Of a stretch of DNA of 54,039 bases, positions 31,297 through 50,258 are shown one piece after another. A model generated the notes under the pieces. That model searched no databases. It saw only the letters and a program-made list of their open reading frames with translations, and had not been told where the DNA came from. Both the position numbers and the translations under genes were made by a program. Where the stretch lies: the NCBI GenBank assembly GCA_002683405.1, contig NYTH01000008.1, forward strand, positions 1-54,039, written 5' to 3'. This stretch comes from Salinisphaeraceae bacterium. Its GTDB lineage: Bacteria > Pseudomonadota > Gammaproteobacteria > Nevskiales > Salinisphaeraceae. Position 1 is the first letter of the stretch. Each line of letters starts with the position of its first letter.

Positions 31297-34086
31297 ATGA
31301 GGTCAACGCGACGACAAGGAGTGCCGGCGATAAGGCGTGCAAACCGGTATTGGCTCACGATCACGCTGCTGCTGTGCTGCGGTGCGTTGAGCGCGCAGGT
31401 CTCGGATCGCGGCGGCGCCGGCTTCGAGGATTTCTCCGCGCTCTCCCAGTCGGACCTGACGAGTGAAATTCGCCGGGTGGAAACGTCGCTGCCGACGGTC
31501 ACCGACGGTACGCGACGCTTTCAACTGCAGCGCCGCATAGCCGATCTGCAGCTCGAACTGGCCACGCGCGTGGATCGACCCTACGACCATGCCCGGGCGG
31601 CGCTGACAATCTACAACCGCCAGCTGAGCTTCCGGACCTTCCCGGCGCAGGAAGCCGAGTTGCTGTATCGCAGCGCCTACGCCGCTGAACTGGCGGGTGA
31701 CTTTTCGGCCGGTATCGTCGCGTTGACGCGATTGATCGCCAATTATCCCAACGCCGAACTTGTGCCCGAGGCATATTTCCGGCGCGCCGAGATGCGTTTC
31801 GTGACGGGCAGTTATGGCCCCGCGGAAGGCGACTACGGGTATCTCGTGCCGCTGGGGCGCGACACCGCGTTCTTCATTGAATCACTTTACAAGCGCGGCT
31901 GGAGCCGCTACCGCCAGCGCGACTATCGCGGCGCGCTGCAGGATCAGGCCCGGGTGGTGGCCGAAGTGCTGGGTCGCACGGCGGTCACGCCACGAGGACG
32001 ATTCGACTTTTCCAGGCTGAGCCTGGCGCAGAAGTCGATCGTGGAGGACGCGATCCGCAACATCGTGCTTGATCTGGCGGCCCTGGGCGATCGCTACTCG
32101 GTGGCGCGCTTCGTCAGCGATGCCGAACTGGCTGCCTACGACTACGCGCTGTCGCGCCGACTGATGGCGTACTGGCGGGAGATCGGGCGGCCGGATATCG
32201 CGGCGCTGGAGGCCGGCCAGTTCGTCGAGCGAAATCCGACACATCCGTCCTCGGACGAGTTGCGGCTGGTGATGATCGAATCGCTGGAGCAGACCGGCCA
32301 GCCAGCGCAGGTCATTCCGGCCAAGAAGGCGTTCGTGAAGCGCTATGGGCTGGAAAACAGTGCCTGGCAGGATCAGCCGTCGATGCAGCAGCCCGCGCAG
32401 CGCGAGCGCATCGAGGCCTATGCCCGCGAGATCACGCAGTGGGAACATGCCCAGGCGCAGCGTACCGGGCAGCCAGCAGCCTACGACGAGGCCGCCCGCT
32501 GGTACGAGCATTACCTGACGCTGTTTCCGCAAACCACCTTTGGTCGCCGGGTGCCGCTGCTGATGGGCGACCTGCTGCTGGAGTCAGGCCGAGCCGATGC
32601 CGCCGCCCGGAGTTATCAGCGCGCCGCCTACGACACGCCGGACAACCCCGAGGCCGCGGAGGCCGCGCTGGCCGGGGTGCTGGCCCTGCGCAAGGCGGCG
32701 GGCAGCGGTTTTGCCAGCGATGCCGGTGTTGAGGCGGCGTCGATACGGTTCGCCTCGCAGTTCCCGGACCATCCGCAGGCGACCGCCGTACTGGCCAATC
32801 TGGCGGAGGCGCGCTATGACGCCCGTGATCTGGAGGCCGCCGGCGCCATGGCGGATCGGGTCCTGGCGCACCAGCCGCCGGCATCACCGGCCGTGCGCCG
32901 CAGCGCGCTGCAGATTCAGGCCGCCGCCGCCAGTCAGACCGGCCAGTATGCCCAGGCCGAGGCGGCGCTGCGGCAACGCCTGGCGCTGGCCTCGCCGGAG
33001 GAGTCGGCCCTGTGGCGCGAACATCTGGCCAGAGCCATTTATCGCCAGGGGGAAGCCCAGCTGCAGGCCGGCGAGCCGGCCGCCGCCGGCCAGACCTTTC
33101 TGCGCCTGGTCGAGGAAATGCCCGCCCAGGGCGAGGCCGCCAGTCGGATACGGGCGACGGCCATGTACGATGCGGCGAACGCATTCGGTCAGGCCGGGCA
33201 GAGCGAGCTGAGCCTGAGCATTCTGGAGCGTTTTCGCAGCGCCTATCCCCAGCATCCCCGGGCGCAGGACGCCAACAACCAGCTGGCCACCGGCTATCTG
33301 GATAGCGGCAATAACGAGCGAGCGCTCGAGGAATTGCGGCGTTTGCTGAACCAGCCCGGGGTCGATGCGCGCACGCGCCGCGACGCCACGCTGGAAATAG
33401 GCCGTCTGCAGGTCGAGACCGGGCAGTACGAAGCGGCATCCCGCACCTACAAGGATTTCTATTATCGGGGCGACCCGTCACCGGAAGAGGCGCTGGAGCT
33501 GCAGGGCCGACTGATCAACCTCTACGTGCGCAGCGGCGACAAGGAGAAGGCGGACTACTGGCGCGAGCAGATTATCCAGACCGATCGTCAGAACAGCACG
33601 CCCACCAGCCGAACGCTGGCAGCCGAGGCCGCGCTGTCGCTCGCCGATGACGCCCGGCTGCGCTACGAAGACATCACGCTGACGGTGCCGCTGCAGCGGT
33701 CCCTGGCGGCCAAACGCGCCGCGTTCCAGACGGCGCTTGAGGCCTATGCCCGCGCGGATGATTACGGTATTGCCAGCGTATCGACGGCCGCCGCCTTTCA
33801 CACCGCCAGTCTGTATCTGGAACTCCATGACGCGCTGGTCCAGGCGCCTCGGCCGGCCGGCATGACGGAAGAGCAGGCGCTGGAGTACGAGCAGGCGATC
33901 AATGCGCGCGCGCTGCCTTTCCGCAGCGACGGTGTCGACATTCTGCAGGCGAATCTGCAGCGGGCCGATCGCGTGGCGGCAGACGATCCCTGGATTGCGC
34001 AGTCACGCGAGCGTCTGCGCGCGCTTGAGCCGGCACAATTTTCGCGTACCGAGCGGCTCGGTGACGCCGTAATCCGCAGGCCCTAG
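31297..34086 (+). CDS. Large exported TPR protein
   Basis: This protein of about 929 residues begins with a basic stretch and a hydrophobic signal segment (RYWLTITLLLCCGALSA, cleaved before QVSDRGG), so it acts in the periplasm. The mature protein is almost wholly alpha-helical and built from tetratricopeptide-type repeats (for example YDHARAALTIYNRQLSF, ALTRLIANYPNAELVPEAYF, AARSYQRAAYDTPDNPEAAE, ALEELRRLLNQPGVDARTRR). Size and context resemble AglT/gliding-type TPR proteins found next to TonB-like energisers, but no ExbBD genes are seen here. The start is uncertain: ATG 31297 is preferred over GTG 31282. A TPR lipoprotein follows after 2 bp, so the two are surely co-transcribed and probably form an envelope complex. 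Confidence 0.85.
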   Translation: MRSTRRQGVPAIRRANRYWLTITLLLCCGALSAQVSDRGGAGFEDFSALSQSDLTSEIRRVETSLPTVTDGTRRFQLQRRIADLQLELATRVDRPYDHARAALTIYNRQLSFRTFPAQEAELLYRSAYAAELAGDFSAGIVALTRLIANYPNAELVPEAYFRRAEMRFVTGSYGPAEGDYGYLVPLGRDTAFFIESLYKRGWSRYRQRDYRGALQDQARVVAEVLGRTAVTPRGRFDFSRLSLAQKSIVEDAIRNIVLDLAALGDRYSVARFVSDAELAAYDYALSRRLMAYWREIGRPDIAALEAGQFVERNPTHPSSDELRLVMIESLEQTGQPAQVIPAKKAFVKRYGLENSAWQDQPSMQQPAQRERIEAYAREITQWEHAQAQRTGQPAAYDEAARWYEHYLTLFPQTTFGRRVPLLMGDLLLESGRADAAARSYQRAAYDTPDNPEAAEAALAGVLALRKAAGSGFASDAGVEAASIRFASQFPDHPQATAVLANLAEARYDARDLEAAGAMADRVLAHQPPASPAVRRSALQIQAAAASQTGQYAQAEAALRQRLALASPEESALWREHLARAIYRQGEAQLQAGEPAAAGQTFLRLVEEMPAQGEAASRIRATAMYDAANAFGQAGQSELSLSILERFRSAYPQHPRAQDANNQLATGYLDSGNNERALEELRRLLNQPGVDARTRRDATLEIGRLQVETGQYEAASRTYKDFYYRGDPSPEEALELQGRLINLYVRSGDKEKADYWREQIIQTDRQNSTPTSRTLAAEAALSLADDARLRYEDITLTVPLQRSLAAKRAAFQTALEAYARADDYGIASVSTAAAFHTASLYLELHDALVQAPRPAGMTEEQALEYEQAINARALPFRSDGVDILQANLQRADRVAADDPWIAQSRERLRALEPAQFSRTERLGDAVIRRP

Positions 34087-39902: not shown

Positions 39903-41951
39903 TCAGCCGTCTTTCGGGTAAAGCAGGCAGCGCGCGCTGTGGGTGTCCGAGAAGTGTCGCGCGTCGGGATAGCTGCGCCGGCAGGCGTCCATGACCTGCG
40001 GGCAGCGGGGCGCGAAATGACAGCCGGCTGGCGGATGCGACGGGGAGGGCAGGTCGCCCTTCAGCCGGATGATCTCGCGCCGGTCTTCCTCGCGAATGCT
40101 GGGCGTGGCGGACAGGAGCGCTTGCGTGTAGGGGTGCCTGGGGTTGTCGAGAATTTCATCGGCACGCCCCTGCTCGACAATCCGGCCCAGATACATCACG
40201 GCCACCTCGTGCGCCATGTAGGCCACCACGGCCATGTTGTGGGTGATGAACAGATAGCTCAGCCCGAGTTCGCGCTGCAGGCGCTGCATGAGGTTGAGGA
40301 CCTGCGCCTGGACGGACACGTCAAGCGCGCTGGTGGGCTCGTCACAGATGATCACTTTCGGGTCCACGGCCAGCGCGCGGGCGATGCAGATGCGCTGGCG
40401 CTGACCCCCCGAGAATTCGTGCGGGTAGCGATCCAGCGCGGCCCGCGTCATGCCGACTTGTTCGAGCAGCTCGGCGGCGCGCTGGCGGCGCTTTTCGGCG
40501 TTGCCGCCCAGCCCCTGCGCCTGCATGCCCTCGGCAATGATGTCGCCCACCATCAGCCTCGGATTCATTGAGGAGAACGGGTCCTGGAAGATCATCTGCA
40601 GGTCGGACCGGCTGCGCTTGAGCTGCGCGCGCGGCGCGTCGGTCAGGTTGCTGCCGCCCAGTTGAATGCGGCCCTCGGTGGGGCGGATGAGCTGCGCGGC
40701 GGCGCGGCCCAGGGTGGTCTTGCCGCAGCCGGATTCGCCCACCAGCGCCAGCGTTTGGCCGGGGGTGATGTCCAGCGAGACTCCGTCCACCGCATAGACG
40801 TGGCCGACGGTGCGCTTGAATACGCCTTTCTGGATGGGGAAGTGCACCCGGATGCCTTTAAGCGACAGCGCCGCCGGACCGGCGTCGGCCGGGGCGGGCG
40901 AGTCCGTGATCGCGTTGCCGGCGTCCGGCGTTTCTTCCAGCGCATCGTCTGGAGGCGGGTGGTCGGGGTAGTCCGGGTCGTACAGATGGCACAGCACGCC
41001 GGTCTGCGCGTCGCCCTGCCAGGCCGGTGGCCGGGCGCGGCAGTCCGACCAGGCGTGCCGGCATCGATCGGCGAAATGGCAGGCGGGCAGGGTCTGCGTG
41101 AGGGGCGGCACCGTGCCCGGAATGACGGACAGATCGCCGCCGCGCCGATCCGGGCCGGGCAGGGAGCGAAACAGCGCGCGGGTGTAGGGATGGCGCGGCC
41201 GCGAGAACAATTCGTCGCGTGGGGCGAGCTCCACGATGCGCCCGGCATACATGACCGCCACCCGGTCCGCCACATCCGCCACCACCGCCAGGTCATGGGT
41301 GATCAGCAGCATGGCCATACCCCGCTCGCGCTGGATACGCGCCAGCAGGTCGAGAATCTGCGCCTGGATCGTGACGTCGAGGGCGGTCGTGGGCTCGTCC
41401 GCAATCAGCACCTCCGGCTCGCCGGCCAGGGCAATGGCAATGACCACGCGCTGCTTCAGGCCGCCGGACAGCTGATGCGGATATTCCTGCCAGCGTCGCG
41501 CCGGGTCGGGCATGCCGACTTCGTTGAGCAGGTCGATACCGGCCTGACGTATTACGGCGCCGTCCAGGCCACGATGCAGCCGCAGCACTTCCGCGATCTG
41601 TTCGCCGACGCTCAGCACCGGATTCAGCGCCGACATCGGCTCCTGGAAAATCATGCCGATGCGTTTGCCGCGAATACGGCGCAACGCCACCTCGGGCAGG
41701 CCAAGCAGATCGACCTGCGCGTCACCCTGGCCGAGCAGGATGCGCCCGCCCGCGTGAATGCCGGCCGGTTGCGGCACCAGCCGCATGAGCGACAGCGCCG
41801 TCATCGACTTCCCGCAGCCGGATTCGCCCAGCAGCGCCACGGTTTCGCCGGCCCGCAGGTTCAGGCTGATGCCGTCCACCGCGCGCAGACGTCCGTCCGG
41901 CGTTTTAAGGTGGGTGCGCAGATCCTCCACGCTCAGCACGGGCGAACGCAT
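39903..41951 (-). CDS. Peptide ABC transporter ATP-binding protein, two ATPases fused (YejF-type)
   Basis: This 682-residue protein has two complete ABC ATPase domains in tandem, as in YejF and other fused Dpp/Opp-type ATPases. The first has [35 protein letters not shown] and [21 protein letters not shown] linker carries the oligopeptide transporter C-terminal signature with cysteines ([14 protein letters not shown]). The second has [37 protein letters not shown] and [20 protein letters not shown], and ends with another oligopeptide signature ([15 protein letters not shown]). It is translationally coupled to the permease upstream by a 1-base TGATG overlap. It powers the transporter encoded by the next two genes. 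Confidence 0.94.
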
Positions 41952-43408
41952 CAGCGGGCTCCCACGTTGGACTGGGCGTGCTGCTCGTCCGGCGTGTGGC
42001 TGTCATCGCCGGTGCCGCCGCGCAGTCTCGGATCGAAGGCATCGCGCACCACGTCGGCAAACAGATTGGCTGCCAGGACCAGCGCCAGCATGAAGAAGAA
42101 GGCCGCCGCCAGCGGCCACCAGACCACGGGATCGCGCGACATCTCCAGCCGCGCGCCGTTGATCATGTTGCCCCAGCTTTCCGTGCTCGGGTCGACCCCC
42201 ACGCCGATGTACGACAGCACGGCCTCGGCCAGTACCAGGGCGGAAAAATCGAGCACGATCTGGATAAGCACGATGTGCATGACGTTGGGCAGGATGTGCC
42301 GCGCCATGATGCGCATATGCCCCACGCCCAGGGCGTTGGCGGCCTGGACGTAGTCCAGCTCCACCAGCTTGAGCGTCTCGGCCCGCAACAACCGGCACAG
42401 ACCTGTCCAGCTGGTGATGCCGAGAATCATGCAGAGGAACAGCAGCCGCAGATCGGCGCGCTCGGTGGTGGTGCGATAGAGCTCGGGGTGGTTCTCCATG
42501 TACACCTGCAGCATCAGCACGGCCGCGGCGATGAGCAGCACGCCCGGAATGGACGACAGCGTCGTGTACAGGTACTGGATGACGTCGTCGACCCAGCCCT
42601 TGAAGTAGCCGGCCATCACGCCGAGTACCAGCGCGAAGGGCAGCATGACCAGCGTGGTCAGCGTACCGATGAGCAGACCGGTGCGAATGCTCTTGACCGC
42701 CTGCAGCAGCACGTCCTGCCCGACCTTGTCGGTACCCAGCACGTGGTAATGGCCGGCCAGCTCGATGATGGCGCCGCCCAGCGCGGCGATGACGGCGGCC
42801 GTGAGCAGTGCGGCGCGCCAGCGCAGCGGCGTTTGATCGTGCCACAGCGCGCGCGTCGTGGCCGGCAGACCGCGTCTGCGGCTGAGCAGCAGGACCAGCA
42901 GCGCCGCCAGCGCCAGCCAGACGATCAATCCCTGAATCGCCCCGGCCGCGCCGCGCAGCGCCACGTCGAGCGGCACTGACGCCGACTCGCCCTCCAGATG
43001 GGCGCCCCCATGCGCCAGACGCGGGAAGATCTGCCGCGTGTTGCCGGCCTCATCCGTAACCACCTGCTGCACATAGCTGCGGGTGGCAAAGGGGGCAGAA
43101 TAAGTCTGCTCGGTGCGCTCGGCCAGGTCACCGGCGATGACGTCGAGCACGCTGACGATCTGCGCCGCGTAGCGGGGCTGGCCATCCTGGCCTGCCTGTG
43201 CCTGCAGGGGACGGAAGTGCACCGAGTCCAGGATGCCGATGATGGCAAACGCCAGCAGGACCACGGCCGAGGCCATGCCCATGCGGCTGCGGAATACGCG
43301 CAGCCAGGGCTCGCGCAGCGGTTTGCTGCGGGCCGCGAAGAACACGAACAGTCCGATGCCGGCCAGCAGCAGATAGAGCAGGAAATCTGTCCAGAGAAAG
43401 ACCGGCAT
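41951..43408 (-). CDS. Peptide ABC transporter permease, DppC/YejE type, unusually long
   Basis: This protein of about 485 residues is the second permease of the oligopeptide transporter. The C-terminal 280 residues are a standard BPD_transp_1 domain with the EAA loop (ETLKLVELDYVQAANALGVG, ARHILPNVMHIVLIQIV) and SYIGVGVDPSTESWGNMING. The N-terminal half is longer than normal (family length about 300-350): it contains TM helices at about 10-25, 48-65 and 155-175, and a polar insertion of about 90 residues (SVHFRPLQAQAGQDG, EGESASVPLDVALRG) that should lie in the periplasm. The start is set at ATG 43408, in TGATG overlap with the upstream gene; a GTG at 43411 is an alternative. Confidence 0.9.
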   Translation of the reverse strand: MPVFLWTDFLLYLLLAGIGLFVFFAARSKPLREPWLRVFRSRMGMASAVVLLAFAIIGILDSVHFRPLQAQAGQDGQPRYAAQIVSVLDVIAGDLAERTEQTYSAPFATRSYVQQVVTDEAGNTRQIFPRLAHGGAHLEGESASVPLDVALRGAAGAIQGLIVWLALAALLVLLLSRRRGLPATTRALWHDQTPLRWRAALLTAAVIAALGGAIIELAGHYHVLGTDKVGQDVLLQAVKSIRTGLLIGTLTTLVMLPFALVLGVMAGYFKGWVDDVIQYLYTTLSSIPGVLLIAAAVLMLQVYMENHPELYRTTTERADLRLLFLCMILGITSWTGLCRLLRAETLKLVELDYVQAANALGVGHMRIMARHILPNVMHIVLIQIVLDFSALVLAEAVLSYIGVGVDPSTESWGNMINGARLEMSRDPVVWWPLAAAFFFMLALVLAANLFADVVRDAFDPRLRGGTGDDSHTPDEQHAQSNVGAR

Positions 43409-44385
43409 CACGACAGCCTGATGCGCGGGTCGACCAGCGTGTAGGAAATATCGGTGAGCAGCAGGCCGATGATATAGAGCACCGAGCCCAGGAAGACCAT
43501 GGCGCGGACGATCGCGAAATCCTGCTTGTTGATGGCGTCAATCGTGTAGCTGCCCAGCCCCGGAATGCCGAAGAACGATTCCATGATGAGGCTGCCCAGA
43601 AACAGCAGCGGCAGAATGACCACGACGCCGGTCAGGATGGGAATCATGCCGTTCTTGAGGACGTGCCGGAACAGCACCCGCAGCTCGGACAGTCCCTTGG
43701 CCCGCGCAGTGCGCACGTAGTCCTTGCCGGCCTCCTCGAGGAACAGCGTGCGATACCAGCGCGTCTGCGCGCCAATGCCGCCGACCACGCCGATGATTAC
43801 CGGCAGGATCAGAAACTTGATCGAATCCCAGCCCGGCGAGTAGCCGGAAATGGGGACCAGATGCATGAGCTTGCCCGCTAGATACTGCCCGCCGATGATG
43901 TAGAACAGCGACGAAATGGACATCAGGAAGACGCAGAGCACCACCCCGGCGGTGTCGATATAGCTGGCCCGGAAGAAGACCAGCAGCAGCGCGAAGGTAA
44001 TGTTCACCAGCAGGCCCACCAGCAGGGTGGGAATCGCCAGCGCGAGACTCGGACCCATGCGATCAAGTATGTCGCGGCTGATGCTGCGGCCATCATCCGA
44101 GCGACCGAAGTCGAAGGCCATCACGCGCACGGACTTGTCGAAGAAGATGGTGTTGGTGAAGCGGTTCGGCCCGTCTTCGGCCGCGTTGTAGAAGTAGGGC
44201 CGGTCATAGCCGCGCTCGGCTTTCCAGGCCTCGATGGCTGCCGGCGTGACCCGCTTGGCGCCCAGCTGCATGCGGGCGATCGAGTCGGGCGTGTTGACCA
44301 CGAAGAACAGCATGAAGGTGATCAGGTTCACGCCGATGAGCACCGGAATGGCATAGAGCAGGCGGCGGATGATGTAGGCGAGCAT
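43408..44385 (-). CDS. Peptide ABC transporter permease, DppB/YejB type
   Basis: This 325-residue inner-membrane protein is the first permease of the oligopeptide transporter. It starts MLAYIIRRLLYAIPVLIGVN, typical of DppB/YejB, and has about six TM helices. The EAA loop is EEAGKDYVRTARAKGLSELR followed by VLFRHVLKNGMIPILTGV, and GSLIMESFFGIPGLGSYTID is the signature near the C-terminus. A polar insertion at residues 46-85 (RVTPAAIEAWKAERGYDRPY) matches the YejB subgroup. It overlaps the next permease gene by 1 base. A 145-bp gap holding a repeat separates it from the binding-protein gene upstream. Confidence 0.93.
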   Translation of the reverse strand: MLAYIIRRLLYAIPVLIGVNLITFMLFFVVNTPDSIARMQLGAKRVTPAAIEAWKAERGYDRPYFYNAAEDGPNRFTNTIFFDKSVRVMAFDFGRSDDGRSISRDILDRMGPSLALAIPTLLVGLLVNITFALLLVFFRASYIDTAGVVLCVFLMSISSLFYIIGGQYLAGKLMHLVPISGYSPGWDSIKFLILPVIIGVVGGIGAQTRWYRTLFLEEAGKDYVRTARAKGLSELRVLFRHVLKNGMIPILTGVVVILPLLFLGSLIMESFFGIPGLGSYTIDAINKQDFAIVRAMVFLGSVLYIIGLLLTDISYTLVDPRIRLS

Positions 44386-44417
44386 GGGTGGGATTTGGCT
44401 CGGGTTCTTTAAAGACT

Positions 44418-44533
44418 AACCACAGAGGCCACAGAGAAAAGACGGTTTGAAACCACAAAGGGAAGAAAAAACAAACTTTGTGTCCTTTGTGGCTTTGTGG
44501 TTAAAACGCTTCATCTTCTCTCTGTGCCTCTTA
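44418..44533. repeat. Interspersed CACAGAG-type repeat between transporter genes
   Basis: AACCACAGAGGCCACAGAGA at the left faces CTTTGTGTCCTTTGTGGC and TTTGTGGTT at the right, as an imperfect inverted repeat with A-rich centre. Similar CCACAGAG...CTCTGTGG blocks are common as interspersed repeats in bacterial intergenic DNA. It is much less G+C-rich than its surroundings. It fills the gap between the binding-protein and permease genes, and part overlaps the binding protein's stop region at 44531-44533. Confidence 0.65.
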
Positions 44534-46702
44534 GGATTTCACCACGGGGGCCTGGCGCTCGCGACGCCGATAGACCAGGAACCCGGGCAGCAGTCCCGCC
44601 AGCAGAATGCCTGCCAGAGCCGGCAGGGGCCAGATGACCGGATCATTCCAGGCGTTTTGTTTGGCCAGCCGCTGCTGCGGCTCGATCTGCAGATACTTCA
44701 GCGTGTTGTTGGCCATGGCGTTGGGGTTGCCGTTGTTCAGCCAGGCCTGATGCAGGATGTAGGTGCGCGGGTAGAACCCCCATATCCAGGGTGCATCACG
44801 CTGCACGATGTCCACCATCTGCCGGATCAGTGCCTGTCGCTGCGGGCCGTTGTCCATGATGCGCATTTGCCGGAAGAGCTGGTCGAAGCGCTCGTTGTCG
44901 TAGTTGGCGACGTTTTCGCCGTTGTGGTCCACCGAGCCGTTGGGCCCGTAGAGCAGAAACAGGAAATTCTCGGGGTCTGGATAATCCGCCAGCCAGCCGG
45001 ATTGGAACAGCTGGACCGCGCCGCTGGCCAGCTTTTCCTGAAAGCGGTTATAGGCGGTCGCGCGCACCACGAGCTGGATGTTCAGCTTGCTGAACTGCTT
45101 GCGCATCCAGTCCAGCTGGGCCTTGAATTCCGGGCCGGTGGCCGGCGTATCCAGATTGAGCAGCAGCGGTTCGCCGGTCTGCTCGTTTACGCCGCCGGGA
45201 TAGCCGGCCCGGGCGAGCAGTTCGCGGGCGTGTTCAACGGATTTTCGCCGGGCCCGGCCGTTGTCCCAGTCGTAAACATAGGGGTTGATGCCCTGTTCGC
45301 CATCCTGGGTGCCGAAAATGCCGGGCGGAATGGGGCCCTGCGCGGCAATCCCGCGGCCGTTGCGAAAAATGGCGATGTAGCTTTCGTAATCCAGCGCGAT
45401 CGAAATGGCCCGGCGCAGCAGGCGAGCGCGCTCGTCGTCGCCGCCGACCACGTCGTCCTGCATGTTGAAGCCCAGGTAGTAGATGGCGGGCGACACGGTG
45501 GTTTTCAGCGTCACGCCGCGCCGCGCCATGGTCTGCGTCAGATGCGGTTCGCCATTCCGATCCACGCGGATGGCTTCCCCGAAACTGTCAGAGCTGATCC
45601 CCGAGGCGTCGTAATAGCCCTGCAGAAACTTGTTCCAGTAGGGAATCTGTTCCTTTTCCAGGGAGAACACCACGCGATCAATGAAGGGCATGGTCTGCCC
45701 CACGGGGTAGTCGGACGCGGCTTCGGGATCGGCAGGTGCGGGGAAGGGCTCGCCGCGGAAATTCGGGTTCTTCTCCAGCACCATCCGCCGGTTCGGGTCG
45801 TTGACCGTCAGCATGTAGGGACCGGTGCCCACGGGGAAGGTATCCAGCGTCATGTTCCGGTCGCGCAGCGCTTTCTGCTGGTAGAAGCGGCTGGCTTCCG
45901 GCGGCACGGGGGCGAAAAACGGCATGGCCAGCCAGAAGCGCAGCTGCGGATACTGGCCCTCCACGAGGATGGAGAAGCGGTGGTCGCCGAGCACTTCCAC
46001 GCCCTCGATGTCGTATTGCGTCAGGTCGACGTAGGCGTCGCGGCCGCGCTCGGCCTGCAGCGCAGCGTCGGCCTGTTTGACGCGCTCGGTAAAGGCCGCC
46101 AGCCCGACGATGTGTTCGTTCATCAGCCCCAGGATCGGCGAATGCGCGCGGGGATTGGCCAGCCGCTTGATCTGGTGCACATAGTCGGCCGCCTTGAGCT
46201 CGCGGCTGCCCAGCTGCGCAAATTGCTGCGGACTCTCCAGAGACGACACGTCCTGCGCAGACAGATTCATGTACAGCGGCTTGCCGCCAGCGTCTCGCGC
46301 GAACGCCGGGTGGGGCTGGTAGCGAATGCCCGGCTGAATATCGATGGTGTAGCGCGAGAACGCGATGTCGGCGGCGGGCGCGTTCGCCGGCAGGGGCCGC
46401 CGCTCGGCGTCGAGATATTCGGGCTCGGGCACGGCGTCGGCGGCCAGCGGCACGAGTTCGTAGGGACGCCGGAAATAGTGATACTGCAGCGCCGGTTCAT
46501 AGATTTGCGCCGTGAACTCCACCTCGTTGGCGGCATAGGACAGGGCCGGGTCCAGGTGGCGCGGCTTTTCGAAGAACGATTCGAACAGCACGCTTTCGCC
46601 GCTGCCGATATCGGGGTAGGGGTCGTTCCAGGGCTGGCTGCATCCAGCCACGCCGGCGGCGACCAGCCCCGCGAGCCACAACTTGCCCACGCGTATATCC
46701 AC
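44531..46702 (-). CDS. Peptide/oligopeptide-binding lipoprotein of the ABC transporter
   Basis: This 723-residue protein is an extracytoplasmic solute-binding protein of family 5 (SBP_bac_5). The signal ends in a lipobox VAGC (MDIRVGKLWLAGLVAAGVAG, cysteine 21). Family features include GTGPYMLTVNDPNRRMVLEK, MPFIDRVVFSLEKEQ, LRRAISIALDYESYIAI, LLARAGYPGGVNEQ and WLADYPDPENFLFLLYGPNG. It is longer than the usual 550-620 residues, and it ends with a C-terminal transmembrane helix (about 697-712, LPALAGILLAGLLPGFLVY) followed by basic residues, so it appears anchored at both ends. It is upstream of the two permeases and fused ATPase and probably delivers peptides to them. It lies 8 bp after mltF. 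Confidence 0.92.
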   Translation of the reverse strand: MDIRVGKLWLAGLVAAGVAGCSQPWNDPYPDIGSGESVLFESFFEKPRHLDPALSYAANEVEFTAQIYEPALQYHYFRRPYELVPLAADAVPEPEYLDAERRPLPANAPAADIAFSRYTIDIQPGIRYQPHPAFARDAGGKPLYMNLSAQDVSSLESPQQFAQLGSRELKAADYVHQIKRLANPRAHSPILGLMNEHIVGLAAFTERVKQADAALQAERGRDAYVDLTQYDIEGVEVLGDHRFSILVEGQYPQLRFWLAMPFFAPVPPEASRFYQQKALRDRNMTLDTFPVGTGPYMLTVNDPNRRMVLEKNPNFRGEPFPAPADPEAASDYPVGQTMPFIDRVVFSLEKEQIPYWNKFLQGYYDASGISSDSFGEAIRVDRNGEPHLTQTMARRGVTLKTTVSPAIYYLGFNMQDDVVGGDDERARLLRRAISIALDYESYIAIFRNGRGIAAQGPIPPGIFGTQDGEQGINPYVYDWDNGRARRKSVEHARELLARAGYPGGVNEQTGEPLLLNLDTPATGPEFKAQLDWMRKQFSKLNIQLVVRATAYNRFQEKLASGAVQLFQSGWLADYPDPENFLFLLYGPNGSVDHNGENVANYDNERFDQLFRQMRIMDNGPQRQALIRQMVDIVQRDAPWIWGFYPRTYILHQAWLNNGNPNAMANNTLKYLQIEPQQRLAKQNAWNDPVIWPLPALAGILLAGLLPGFLVYRRRERQAPVVKS

Positions 46703-46710
46703 CGGGGCCG

Positions 46711-48156
46711 CTACAGCACTGGTGTGTTGATGTGCAACGCCCGCTCGCCGGGCGGCAGCGGCGCCTTCTCGGTCAGCGTTTCGGGCATTTCCATGGGCGT
46801 GTCGGAAGTCATCCAGAGCAGGATATCGTAATAGGCGCGAATATTGCCCACGTAGGCCACGGCCTCCTGACCGCGGGTGTAGCCGTAGCGCGTCTGGCGG
46901 TAGTACTTCTCCTGCGTCAGAAGCGGAAAGGTGTTGCGCACATCCACCCAGAGATCGGGGTTGCCGCCCCGTTTGGCCGTGAGCCGGCGGGCGTCCATCA
47001 AGTGGCCCATGCCCTGGTTGTAGGCCGCCAGCGCCATCCAGGTGCGATCGGGTTCGGCGAGCTGTCCCTGCAGGCCTTCCAGCCGTCGGTGCAGCGCCGC
47101 GAAGTAGCGGGAGCCCGCGTTGATGCTTTGCAGCGCATTGCGCCGATCGGACACGCCGAGGTCGGCCGCGGTGTCCTTGGTCAGCATCATCAGCCCCTTG
47201 ACCTGGGTGTAGCTAACGGCCTGCGGGTCCCAGTGTGATTCCTGGTAGCCGATCGCGGCGAGCAGCCGCCAATCCACCGCGTTCTTCCGGCCGGCCTTCT
47301 GGAACGCGTCGCGAAACTTCGGCAGACGCACCTCCACCTGCCGGGCGAAGGTCTTGCCACCCACGAATCCCAGATACTCCAGGTGGCCGAAATAACGATC
47401 CTCGATGGTGCGCAGGCGGCGTGAGCCGCGCAGCTCCGTGAGAAAGCGGTTCACCGAGCGGAACAGGGGGTCGCCCTCGGCGCTGTCGGACGCAAACGCC
47501 CAGGCCATTTCGGCCTTTTCGTCCAGGCTGAAGGCCTTGCGCAGGCCCGTGTAATAACGCTGGTTGAGCTTGACCAGGTTCGAATCGGCCACCGCATAGT
47601 CAATTTCTCCCTGCGCGATGCTGAACAACAGGGCTTCGGTATTGCTGTCGGGCACCTGATTCAGCGCCAGTCCGGGCGCAGCGCGGTGCACCAGTTCCGC
47701 CACTCCGCCATTGCCGGCCACGAACAGCTTTCCGTCCAGGTCCTCGAGACTGCGGGGCCGCCGGTTGCCGCTGCGATAGACAATTTCCTGGGCGATGTTG
47801 GCGTAGCTTTGCGTGAAGCGCAGGCCGGGCTGCGTTCCGCTGCTGCGCATGACGCCAGCGGCAAAATGCGCCTGGCCGTTCAACACGGCCTCCATGGCGA
47901 GCTGGAGGTTGTCGACGACCAGCACCTTGAGCGAGACGCCCAGATGCTCGGCAAACAGGCTGGCCAGATCGTATTCGTAGCCTGCGGGTCCGTCGGCGCT
48001 GATGAAATAGGTGGTGGCAGAGTTCACGGTGGCCATGCGCAGCTCACCCGCGGTGCGCACCGCGTGCAGTCGCGACACGGGCGGCGAGCATGTGCCGAGC
48101 AGGGCGAGCACGGTGAAGGCCAGCAGGAGACGGCTGATCAGCCAGGCCTGGCGCAT
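46711..48156 (-). CDS. mltF: MltF, membrane-bound lytic murein transglycosylase F
   Basis: This protein of about 481 residues is a lytic transglycosylase that cleaves peptidoglycan to 1,6-anhydro-muropeptides. After a lipoprotein-like signal (MRQAWLISRLLLAFTVLALL then GTC) comes a periplasmic binding domain (ELRMATVNSATTYFISADGP, GYEYDLASLFAEHLGVSL) and a C-terminal SLT domain with catalytic E306 in AIGYQESHWDP. MMLTKDTAADLGVSDR, AALAAYNQGMGHLMDAR and the C-terminal VAYVGNIRAYYDIL are family features. E. coli MltF has 518 residues. The start may also lie at ATG 48189; no ribosome site decides. It lies just upstream of the binding-lipoprotein gene, so it may be co-transcribed with the peptide transporter; this fits peptide or muropeptide recycling. 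Confidence 0.92.
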   Translation of the reverse strand: MRQAWLISRLLLAFTVLALLGTCSPPVSRLHAVRTAGELRMATVNSATTYFISADGPAGYEYDLASLFAEHLGVSLKVLVVDNLQLAMEAVLNGQAHFAAGVMRSSGTQPGLRFTQSYANIAQEIVYRSGNRRPRSLEDLDGKLFVAGNGGVAELVHRAAPGLALNQVPDSNTEALLFSIAQGEIDYAVADSNLVKLNQRYYTGLRKAFSLDEKAEMAWAFASDSAEGDPLFRSVNRFLTELRGSRRLRTIEDRYFGHLEYLGFVGGKTFARQVEVRLPKFRDAFQKAGRKNAVDWRLLAAIGYQESHWDPQAVSYTQVKGLMMLTKDTAADLGVSDRRNALQSINAGSRYFAALHRRLEGLQGQLAEPDRTWMALAAYNQGMGHLMDARRLTAKRGGNPDLWVDVRNTFPLLTQEKYYRQTRYGYTRGQEAVAYVGNIRAYYDILLWMTSDTPMEMPETLTEKAPLPPGERALHINTPVL

Positions 48157-48206
48157 CGATAAACCGGATTGTCGCGCAAGCGATGCCATGCAAAATGAGA
48201 ATTGGC

Positions 48207-48235
48207 TTGGGACGAAGCGCACAATACATTAGAAT
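48207..48235 (+). promoter_or_regulatory. Strong sigma-70 promoter with GC-rich discriminator (stable-RNA type)
   Basis: TTGGGA (48207-48212), a 17-bp spacer and TAGAAT (48230-48235) form a near-consensus promoter. It is followed at once by the GC discriminator CCGCGCCC, the hallmark of growth-rate-controlled tRNA and rRNA promoters. The first tRNA-Ser-like unit begins about 80 bp downstream of the expected start. Confidence 0.7.
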
Positions 48236-48321
48236 CCGCGCCCTGACGCATCGCGCCCCGGTTTGGACGGACTCCGGAACAGTGAATCTGACGGCGGTGG
48301 CCCACAGGGTGCGAACAAGAT

Positions 48322-48448
48322 GAAGAGGTACCGAAGCGGTCCCTCTTTAAGACAACAGGCACCGACTCGAAATCGGTCGGTGTCGAAGCGCAGCGTAGAG
48401 ACCGGACCGATGATCGCTACTTTGCGCTGGGACAATTAGAGAGTTAAT
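48322..48448 (+). repeat. tRNA-Ser-derived tandem unit 1 (5' half only)
   Basis: The sequence from AGAGGTACCGAAGCGGTC through the anticodon arm ACCGACTCGAAATCGGT matches the intact tRNA-Ser(CGA) at 48578, including the anticodon CGA. The D-loop is expanded by CCTCTTTAAGACAAC, and the T-arm and acceptor 3' strand are replaced by CGGTGTCGAAGCGCAGCGTA and unrelated sequence. The inserted CCTCT can pair with the 5' AGAGG to make an alternative hairpin. It differs from unit 2 at only two positions over about 88 bases (48324-48411). Confidence 0.8.
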
Positions 48449-48577
48449 GGAGAGGTACCGAAGCGGTCCCTCTTTAAGACAATAGGCACCGACTCGAAAT
48501 CGGTCGGTGTCGAAGCGCAGCGTAGAGACCGAACCGATGGATTTCTACTCGCGCGCTGAGACAATTGATGAGTTTTA
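48449..48577 (+). repeat. tRNA-Ser-derived tandem unit 2 (5' half only)
   Basis: This is a near copy of unit 1, with the complete acceptor 5' strand GGAGAGG, D-arm, the same D-loop expansion, and the anticodon arm, but no T-arm. Even the spacer after it (CTACT...GCGCTGAGACAATT...AGTT) resembles that of unit 1, so the whole unit of about 128 bp was duplicated in tandem, and the intact tRNA begins where unit 3 would. Confidence 0.8.
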
Positions 48578-48668
48578 GGAGAGGTACCGAAGCGGTCATA
48601 ACGGCACCGACTCGAAATCGGTTGGGGGCTTACGCCCCACGTGGGTTCGAATCCCACCCTCTCCGCCA
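48578..48668 (+). tRNA. tRNA-Ser (CGA)
   Basis: This 91-nt sequence folds as a class II tRNA. The acceptor stem is GGAGAGG/CCTCTCC. The D-arm has CCGAAGCGGTC, and the anticodon arm is ACCGA-CTCGAAA-TCGGT with anticodon CGA, reading serine UCG. A long variable arm TGGGGGCTTACGCCCCA marks tRNA-Ser. The T-arm is GTGGG-TTCGAAT-CCCAC, followed by discriminator G and an encoded CCA (48666-48668). It is preceded by two tRNA-like partial repeats. Confidence 0.95.
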
Positions 48669-48669
48669 A
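48650..48669 (+). repeat. tRNA 3' end, left copy of a 20-bp direct repeat (att-like)
   Basis: The last 20 bases at the tRNA-Ser 3' end, AATCCCACCCTCTCCGCCAA, recur exactly at 48818-48837. Such duplications of tRNA 3' ends are the usual trace of tyrosine-recombinase integration. Confidence 0.6.
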
Positions 48670-48738
48670 CAATCAGGTGACGTCAAGGTACAGATGGGCG
48701 CCGGTCGTTTAATTCGGCACAATTCGAACGCACGAAGT

Positions 48739-48812
48739 GGGTCGACCGATTGGCCGGGAGCCAATCGACAGCTGCCGAAGGCAGACCCGAAGGGCGGAGC
48801 ACAGGGATGTGC
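48739..48812 (+). other. Hairpin-rich segment between the two tRNA 3'-end copies
   Basis: Three perfect stems follow each other: GATTGGC/GCCAATC with loop CGGGA (48748-48766), CTGCC/GGCAG with loop GAA (48772-48784), and GCACA/TGTGC with loop GGGA (48799-48812). GGGT (48739-48742) and ACCC (48785-48788) could close the first two into a branched structure. It may be a structured RNA or tRNA-derived relic. The call rests on inspection of pairing only. Confidence 0.4.
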
Positions 48813-48817
48813 GGAGT

Positions 48818-48837
48818 AATCCCACCCTCTCCGCCAA
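48818..48837 (+). repeat. tRNA-Ser 3' end, right copy of the 20-bp direct repeat
   Basis: AATCCCACCCTCTCCGCCAA is repeated here without the rest of a tRNA, 168 bp right of the first copy. Together with 48650-48669 it brackets a 148-bp segment with hairpins and no integrase gene. Confidence 0.6.
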
Positions 48838-49122
48838 TCAACAGACCGCGATAGACCGTCGACGAGTGACCGCGTCCCCCGCTGTCTCAGCCCCCTGGTT
48901 CAGGCCGCGGGCTCGCAAACCCGGGGCGTAGCCGCTGCATTCGAAACGGCCGGACTGTGGCTGCGCAAACGCGTGCCCCGTGCCCGTGTGACATCCGGTC
49001 CACTACCATTACTCAGGCGGCCGCTAATGCCACGCGACTGTCGCCGCTGATGAACGAATTGATTCCTCGCCGCCAACCGATCAAGGTTCTTCGGCAAGCG
49101 TACAGATAACGGTCGGGACTCT
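48838..49122. other. Non-coding gap before the DUF1820 gene
   Basis: No gene is evident. Together with the segment from 48669 it makes a gap of about 450 bp between the tRNA and the DUF1820 gene. Apart from the repeats and hairpins listed, I see no promoter of good consensus or further structure. Confidence 0.4.
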
Positions 49123-49455
49123 ATGGCGGACAAAAAGCAACTCTACCGCGTCACCTTCATGAATCAGGGTGAGGTTTACGAGGTTTACGCGAAATCCGTT
49201 TCGCAGGGCGGGTTGTTCGGCTTCATCGAGATCGAGCAGATGGTGTTTGGCGAGCGCACCCAGGTCGTCATCGATCCGGCGGAAGAGAAGCTGGCGGACG
49301 AATTTGCCGATGTGGTCCGCTCCTATGTGCCCATGCACGCGATCATCCGTATCGACGAGGTGAAAAAGCAGGGTCCGGCCAAGGTCACCAAGGTGGAGGG
49401 CGACGGCAAGGTCATGCCGTTTCCGGTCTACACCGGCCGGGGTCCCGAGAAGTAG
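49123..49455 (+). CDS. DUF1820 family protein
   Basis: This 110-residue protein matches the DUF1820 family found in many Gammaproteobacteria. It begins MADKKQLYRVTFMNQGEVYE and continues VYAKSVSQGGLFGFIEIEQM, VFGERTQVVIDPAEEKL and YVPMHAIIRIDEVKKQGPAK. It has no signal peptide or membrane helix and should be cytoplasmic. The function of the family is not known. Genes for an MBL-fold hydrolase and purL follow in the same direction. Confidence 0.88.
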   Translation: MADKKQLYRVTFMNQGEVYEVYAKSVSQGGLFGFIEIEQMVFGERTQVVIDPAEEKLADEFADVVRSYVPMHAIIRIDEVKKQGPAKVTKVEGDGKVMPFPVYTGRGPEK

Positions 49456-49487
49456 CGCACGTGAGTCCGACGGAGTAGCCCGCCACA

Positions 49488-50258
49488 GTGAGATTCGCCA
49501 GCCTGGGCAGCGGAAGCCGCGGCAACGCCACGCTGATCGAACGCAACGGCACCCGCCTGCTGGTGGACTGCGGTTTCTCGGCGCGGGAGGCCGAGCGGCG
49601 ACTGCTGGCGCTCGGGGTCGGCGCCGACAGCCTCACCGCCCTGGTCGTGACGCATGAACACATCGATCACGTACGGGGTATTGCGCGCCTGGCGGCCCGG
49701 TACCGGCTGCCTGTCTGGATGACGCCGGGCACCCATGCGGCGTGGGGGGCTCAGGCCGGGCTGGCCGACATCGAGCTTTTCAGCCCGCATGAGGCGTTTG
49801 CGCTGAACGACCTGGAAATGCTGCCCTTTCCCGTGCCGCACGACGCGCGCGAGCCCTGCCAGTTCGTGGTGTCGGATGGCGCCTGGCGGCTGGCGCTGCT
49901 GTCCGACGCGGGGCGGGCGACACCCCATATGCGCGAGATGCTCAGGGGCTGCGATGCGCTCATGCTCGAATGTAATCACGACCCCGACATGCTGGCTGCC
50001 GGTCCTTACCCGGCCAGCGTGAAGCGCCGCATCAGCGGCCGGGAAGGGCACTTGAGCAATGGCCAGGCTGCCGGTCTGCTGCGCGAGATTCTGGATAGCG
50101 GGTTGCAGCACGTTATTGCGACCCATCTGAGCGAGAACAACAATTCCCCCCAGGCGGCCCGCGATGCGCTGGCCGCGGTACTGGGCTGCGAACCCGAATG
50201 GGTGACGGTGGCAGGACAAAAGGACGGATTCACGTGGCGGCAGATCATCAGCACCTGA
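49488..50258 (+). CDS. MBL-fold metallo-hydrolase (YycJ/WalJ-like)
   Basis: This 256-residue protein is a metallo-beta-lactamase fold hydrolase close to YycJ/WalJ nuclease-like proteins. It starts at GTG 49488 with VRFASLGSGSRGNATLIERN. The metal-binding motif is THEHIDH (HxHxDH), with further ligands in the LLSDAGR, LECNHDP and ATHLSENNNS segments. Members bind two metal ions; some act on DNA ends, but activity here is unknown. The gene lies 33 bp after the DUF1820 gene, and its end overlaps the GTG start of purL by 25 bp, so the two are probably co-transcribed. Confidence 0.9.
   Translation: MRFASLGSGSRGNATLIERNGTRLLVDCGFSAREAERRLLALGVGADSLTALVVTHEHIDHVRGIARLAARYRLPVWMTPGTHAAWGAQAGLADIELFSPHEAFALNDLEMLPFPVPHDAREPCQFVVSDGAWRLALLSDAGRATPHMREMLRGCDALMLECNHDPDMLAAGPYPASVKRRISGREGHLSNGQAAGLLREILDSGLQHVIATHLSENNNSPQAARDALAAVLGCEPEWVTVAGQKDGFTWRQIIST

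Follow-up and report, generated by a model that had tools for sequence, protein, structure and literature searches.

The stretch of DNA analysed here (the window; 54,039 nt, contig NYTH01000008.1 of a Salinisphaeraceae bacterium) contains an intact tRNA-Ser(CGA) gene with partial copies of itself on both sides (Table 1). Upstream lie two tandem units resembling the 5' half of the tRNA, as the original prediction had described, and ahead of them is the promoter-like site that it had also pointed out, the one such site found against 0.2 expected. Downstream is a copy of the 3' end of the tRNA, which was absent from that first reading, and with it the gene has copies of both of its ends. A scan found no terminator-like site between 48100 and 49120. 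The six neighbouring frames (41951-50258) were named through Pfam as a lytic transglycosylase, DUF1820, a beta-lactamase-fold protein and parts of a peptide transporter.

Table 1. Features at the tRNA-Ser(CGA) locus, in coordinates of the window
Feature	Position	Strand	Evidence
Promoter-like site TTGGGA-17-TAGAAT, upstream of the array	48207..48235	+	consensus match only, 9/12
Unit 1: tRNA-Ser(CGA) 5' half with D-loop insertion, plus non-tRNA tail	48320..48446	+	repeat search, fold, alignment
Predicted hairpins of unit 1	48321-48349, 48358-48384, 48387-48428		whole-unit fold
Unit 2: architecture as unit 1, core 97% identical	48447..48576	+	repeat search, fold, alignment
Predicted hairpins of unit 2	48448-48476, 48485-48511, 48514-48557		whole-unit fold
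Intact tRNA-Ser(CGA)	48578..48668	+	ARAGORN; Rfam RF00005, 53.3 bits
RtT-like hairpin element K in sense, immediately ahead of the copied tRNA 3' end	48741..48818	+	model R2, 73.6 bits (copy in R2 seed); layout by eye
Last 19 nt of tRNA-Ser(CGA), copied exactly with the CCA	48818..48836	+	repeat search

The two upstream units share a direct repeat of 93 nt (48320-48412 and 48447-48539; 97% identity, spacing 127 nt), and their lengths of 127-130 nt bracket the single figure of about 128 bp given before. In a global alignment of the units, the first 93 columns hold 89 matches, 3 substitutions and 1 gap, making three substituted sites in the core rather than the two first counted. The tails, with 28 matches, 6 substitutions and 4 gaps, are less well conserved than the cores (Fisher test on substitutions, p = 0.012). 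Alignment to the tRNA agrees with the proposed anatomy: both units keep the acceptor 5' strand and the anticodon arm with its CGA, diverge from the tRNA past the anticodon stem, and lack the variable arm and the 3' acceptor strand with the T side. The D arm had been described as kept, and most but not all of it is. The first 18 nt of the units retain 17/18 and 18/18 positions of the tRNA start. Only the intact tRNA is reported by ARAGORN and by Rfam at its gathering score, and neither half unit is. The leaders of the units are not duplicated, the outer match being 0-2 nt. A group I intron was considered and dropped, the anticodon loop sequence being uninterrupted as judged from the sequence. 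A homology of the unit tail to that of the unit at tRNA-Arg(ACG) was rejected when 143 of 500 shuffles reached its score.

Folded whole, each unit is predicted to form three hairpins (-50 and -51 kcal/mol, z of -4.1 and -4.6). The first of these forms as had been proposed, with the D-loop insertion (CCTCTT..) pairing to the 5' AGAGG. The second is in a shifted register, and the CGA anticodon falls outside any seven-base loop. The predicted fold varies with the stretch supplied: the 91-nt cores folded alone (z of -2.9 and -2.8) keep the first hairpin and lose the second, and the third hairpin differs in the centroid of unit 1. Both tRNA-derived hairpins of the units exceed the tRNA's own in length. 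Following CGGT(C) there is CCTCTT, complementary to the upstream AAGAGG of unit 1, and following TCGGT there is CGGTGTC, a near-complement of GGCACCG.

The original prediction had named absence from close relatives as something that would speak against it, and in the relatives searched the units are absent. Among 85 genomes of the order (own genome included), 14 others match a unit over 21-34 nt only, and the D-loop hairpin pattern, looked for in 369 genomes of the class, occurs in the own genome alone, where it is found twice. When the whole region was compared with 100 genomes (own included), the matches listed outside the own genome covered the tRNA part alone. No unit match was found in phage and plasmid collections by blastn, nor was the unit found in viral contigs by exact pattern. 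A looser pattern, applied in a broad scan of genome contigs, returned six stretches from unrelated organisms. We rejected these as relatives and take them as chance because ARAGORN finds a tRNA gene at none of the six loci. Titles and the opening parts of abstracts, mostly from outside the subscription literature, held no report of 5'-end tRNA copies with hairpin elements, nor of RtT-like units behind many tRNAs.

Copied tRNA ends are common in the own genome even so. Each tRNA gene's own first and last 18 nt were compared with its 400-nt flanks at a match of at least 16/18, for the tRNA sets of four genomes. In the own genome, a 5'-end copy lies upstream of 9/43 tRNA genes and a 3'-end copy downstream of 10/43, together affecting 15/43 genes. 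The copies on the wrong side number 0 and 0, and controls with reversed queries and with other tRNAs also gave 0. The three further genomes, with all controls again at 0, are G010 of the own family (one contig; 2/46 upstream and 7/46 downstream), G044 of the own order (two contigs; 4/43 and 8/43) and G174 of another order (0/45 and 2/45). In all, the four genomes contain 51 units with lengths from 98 to 352 nt; 44 fall between 127 and 200 nt, and several are in tandem. The nearest copies are 80-352 nt from the gene. Two loci of G010 (L193 and L200) were seen by eye to have near full-length copies of tRNA-Gln(TTG) and tRNA-Ser(GGA) upstream of the intact genes, with the T-loop interrupted by an RtT-like element.

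Most of the downstream units examined resemble a known RNA by eye. In RtT (Rfam RF00391; rttR at tyrT/tyrV of E. coli), a T-loop-like GGTTCGA and an exact tRNA 3'-end copy flank a hairpin element, and this arrangement recurs downstream of the tRNA. The unit in the window (48741-48836) likewise has an exact tRNA 3'-end copy behind its element, downstream of the tRNA. At tyrT/tyrV of E. coli K-12 the RtT units have the same layout, and the 19-nt tRNA end is found at six places, two of them inside intact tRNAs. Many of our downstream units share a common layout by eye, consisting of TTCGA, a stem, a second hairpin, CCCGAAGGG, a stem, GAGTA or similar, and the copied tRNA end. By eye the window unit seems to follow this layout too; the R2 seed contains this copy, and RNAalifold recovered only 12 pairs from a 31-sequence alignment of 3' units. 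Alongside E. coli RtT, 26 of 32 downstream units (the window unit and 25 others) could be aligned by layout, 18 with K in sense and 8 in antisense as assigned from a text pattern. The six left out comprise two missed by the text pattern and four not aligned (three misfits by eye and one duplicate). That both orientations occur fits the palindrome TTCGAA present in many T-loops. The window 3' unit is identical at 158/168 positions to the unit behind tRNA-Ser(TGA) on another contig. In the own genome, 17 of 20 matches to R2 are within 500 nt of an intact tRNA gene (150 of 4273 candidates scored, several of the matches being in the seed). R2 gives no match at 48320-48576.

The RF00391 model itself finds two units behind tRNA-Tyr in G010 (65.9 and 59.3 bits; gathering score 45), and one unit behind tRNA-Gln reaches 43.3 bits, under that cut-off. 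It has no match in the window, nor in locus L009 up to an E value of 0.5. Unlike RtT, our units are found behind a variety of tRNAs and occur both in sense and in antisense. The 5' units of the window differ further in being on the opposite side of the gene and in carrying the 5' rather than the 3' tRNA end. A tandem GA motif is named for RtT in PMC7657543. The K-12 RtT unit is present at 1 to 9 places in 4680 of 5426 E. coli genomes, and 746 of the 5426 are without a match. At tyrTV of E. coli SK1144 (L254) no RtT unit was seen behind tRNA-Tyr, and at that of K-12 (L255) there are several.

On the 5' side, a different hairpin element, H, recurs. At six of the nine own-genome genes with 5' copies (Arg CCT, Gly CCC, Gly TCC, Thr CGT, Ser GGA and Ser TGA), the copy ends at the D-loop GG and H follows. 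The other three (Ser CGA, Ser GCT and Arg ACG) show no match to H. The own-genome copies of H have a common predicted fold, in which 7 of 20 pairs are changed on both sides among 10 copies. Those ten copies are the seed of the H model, R1, and match it by construction. Eight of them are near tRNA genes (one about 450 nt downstream of tRNA-Pro), one is at a contig end beside a tRNA-Thr 5' copy, and one is at the start of murG. R1 has no match to the window units at 48320-48576. It does recognise H, without training on them, in 5' units at the tRNA-Ser(CGA) genes of two other genera (L038 with 33.1 bits and L019 with 24.4 bits), and it gives no match at the other 13 of the 15 loci tested with them, including 5' units of G010 and G044. 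Across the order, at least 43 of 85 genomes have matches to R1, with up to 60 candidates scored per genome.

From the matches listed across the order, 69 copies of H outside the own genome were tested further. Only 7 of the 69 are within 400 nt of a tRNA. At 19 of the 69, the left flank of H recurs downstream of it (at least 19/24 nt), and at the other 50 no such flank repeat was found. The mirror test gave 0/69 and the cross-locus control 1/682. These flank repeats measure 19-68 nt, with a median of 31 and with 0-6 mismatches, and in 19/19 cases GG forms the last two bases of the restored copy. Only this restored-side GG is independent; the left-side GG belongs to the first two positions of the R1 model. 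The following gene was scanned at nine of the 19, and eight of these score above curated cut-offs as mnmG, aroC, ddl, mtnC (in two genomes), cca, murG and gmhB. The ninth is a HAD phosphatase, below the cut-off for phosphoglycolate phosphatase. The mnmG (L284) and cca (L324) frames reach the end of the fetched stretch and are visibly intact to that point. Two more of the 19 are at tRNA genes, tRNA-Pro (L321) and tRNA-Arg (L331). A second case of murG is in the own genome (L129; G000:C42, about 32750-32819), where H is at the gene start with a 27-nt gene-start repeat without mismatches, followed by a murG frame above the NCBIfam cut-off.

The original prediction, whose anatomy and promoter-like site hold up, had read the units as possible decoys for serine tRNA processing or charging or as tRNA-fragment-like RNAs. 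That part does not fare well. We set decoy function back because 5' and 3' copies are found at many tRNA genes (9/43 and 10/43) and H is found at protein gene starts with a like duplication, which a tRNA decoy does not predict. Behind tRNA-Gln(CTG) of the own genome the 3' copy lies beyond a terminator-like site, and the scan places a duplicate of that site after the copy. Both SerRS and RNase P depend on the long variable arm and on the T/acceptor 3' side of a tRNA. The units have neither that arm nor a complete acceptor stem, and the callers recognise the intact gene alone, which speaks against a functional tRNA-Ser or SerRS decoy. At another tRNA with a 3' copy, in G010 (L162), a terminator in between was suspected by eye and was not found by the scan.

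We think it probable, on the sequence comparisons above, that the window units are truncated 5'-end copies of the tRNA-Ser(CGA) gene next to them, and that such tRNA-end copies are target duplications which small hairpin elements left behind, rather than decoys. A hairpin element of about 60-170 nt would arrive inside or beside a gene end, after a GG in the case of H or in the T-loop in the case of K. A stretch from a point inside the gene to a point outside it would be duplicated, leaving one intact gene and one truncated end. The flank repeats, read from occupied sites, would be the target duplications of the moving element. Insertions whose duplication spans the gene end would persist with an intact gene remaining, and a duplication that does not span it would cost the gene, a case that would go unseen. 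The need for the duplication to span the gene end would then explain both the one-sidedness of the copies and the preference for gene starts. As a general statement, that the H class of this bacterial order moves by duplicating 19-68 nt before a GG, at tRNA genes and at the starts of essential protein genes, with an intact gene restored downstream and with RtT as its T-loop counterpart, this is a tentative proposal to which we would give somewhat less than even chances.

The window units themselves would have arisen by a related event, and we regard them as likely to be an aged or related case of the hairpin-element process. They are placed and sized like the other 5' units, are likewise tandem and made up of hairpins, and stand at a gene that also carries a K unit. 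As in the H class, the 5' end of a gene is copied upstream of the intact gene, beside an array of hairpins. They differ from the other 5' units in that the copy extends through the anticodon arm, and in having neither a recognisable H nor a duplicated leader. We consider them the least typical members because neither R1 nor R2 matches them and their leaders are not duplicated, and since they have no recognisable H, we can only infer their link to the process. Their tRNA-derived hairpins may have been lengthened by template switching at existing palindromes (ACCG-AAG-CGGT with CCTCTT, and GGCACCG answered by CGGTGTC). Several further observations count against the hairpin-element reading. The conservation of the cores is equally compatible with selection acting on an RNA, or with conversion of one unit by the other, and some pairs of H stay paired through change, as those of a functional RNA would. 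Most H copies tested (50 of 69) showed no flank repeat, most of the loci searched with the H model beyond its seed (13 of 15) gave no match, and the common layout of the 3' units is judged by eye.

An alternative is that the units are functional RNAs, tRNA-half-like or RtT-like, that would be co-transcribed with tRNA-Ser and selected, for example, for precursor processing or stability. The promoter-like site with no terminator-like site in the scanned region, the stable predicted hairpins of the whole units, the cores less diverged than the tails, and the nearly complete retention of the tRNA-derived first 18 nt would all suit such an RNA, and the related E. coli unit is annotated as a small RNA, RttR/RtT. 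We nevertheless consider it unlikely. The units were not found in the relatives searched, one copy in the wider set lies past a terminator-like site, H also stands at protein genes, and the whole-unit fold puts the anticodon outside a normal loop.

That the tRNA gene was simply duplicated in tandem and then decayed, with no element involved, is doubtful too, and we would give this a small share of the probability. It would account simply for tandem units directly upstream of the gene and for the lack of H in them, and the near full-length interrupted copies beside intact genes in G010, read by eye, would also suit it. It would not bring hairpin elements that resemble one another to tRNA genes and protein genes without relation to each other, nor yield breakpoints at GG and in the T-loop or the strict one-sidedness of the copies.

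Integration relics were among the options named at the outset, and tRNA genes are indeed common integration sites at which partial tRNA copies result, as PMC9897764 describes. The partial tRNA genes of integrative elements in that paper resemble ours in being truncated copies beside an intact gene; they differ in that here there is no island between the copies, the spacing is short and both tRNA ends are affected. That the units are attachment-site remnants (attL/attR) of integrated phages or islands is very improbable: the nearest copies are 80-352 nt away and not kilobases, 5' and 3' copies occur in nearly equal numbers in the own genome (9 and 10), no integrase is among the six neighbouring frames, and the plasmid and phage collections gave no match. 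An assembly artefact is extremely improbable. Although this is a draft genome of 58 contigs, some ending in such repeats, the two units are set apart by substitutions at 9 sites and by 5 gap columns, and the wider pattern is also present in the one-contig G010 and the two-contig G044.

If hairpin elements are the source, REP sequences and other bacterial palindromic repeats are the natural comparison. These are moved by RAYT (Y1) transposases. Like them, our elements are short, hairpin-forming, non-coding and present several times per genome. Unlike them, ours have flank repeats of 19-68 nt, and to our knowledge none are described for REPs. The Y1 transposase family also seems not to be needed here. 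As the mover it finds no support, with 3 matches in the own genome and 8 in G010 but 0 in G044, although units of this kind are present there. Should the flank repeats be target duplications, their variable length of 19-68 nt together with a surviving essential gene would point to an unusual bacterial insertion mechanism, and a mobile origin would be suggested for RtT. The same explanation, if true, would account for some of the tRNA fragments met by annotation programs.

H was seen in the same gene at about the same position in different genomes for murG (L293 and L129), cca (L324 and L329), mtnC (L309 and L344) and the HAD phosphatase (L300 and L301), with L329 and L301 named by eye. This recurrence could come from insertions that hit a favoured site more than once, or from regulation that has been conserved. 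At another locus of the own genome (L270; G000:C28:257104-257188), an RtT-like element was seen by eye beside a sequence like the 3' end of tRNA-Phe, uncalled by ARAGORN. At two loci (L079 and L247), Rfam places sX4 (RF02223) on tRNA-Ser plus its downstream stretch with 41.7 and 48.8 bits against a cut-off of 70; because sX4 scores this combination, that family may include tRNA-Ser sequence.
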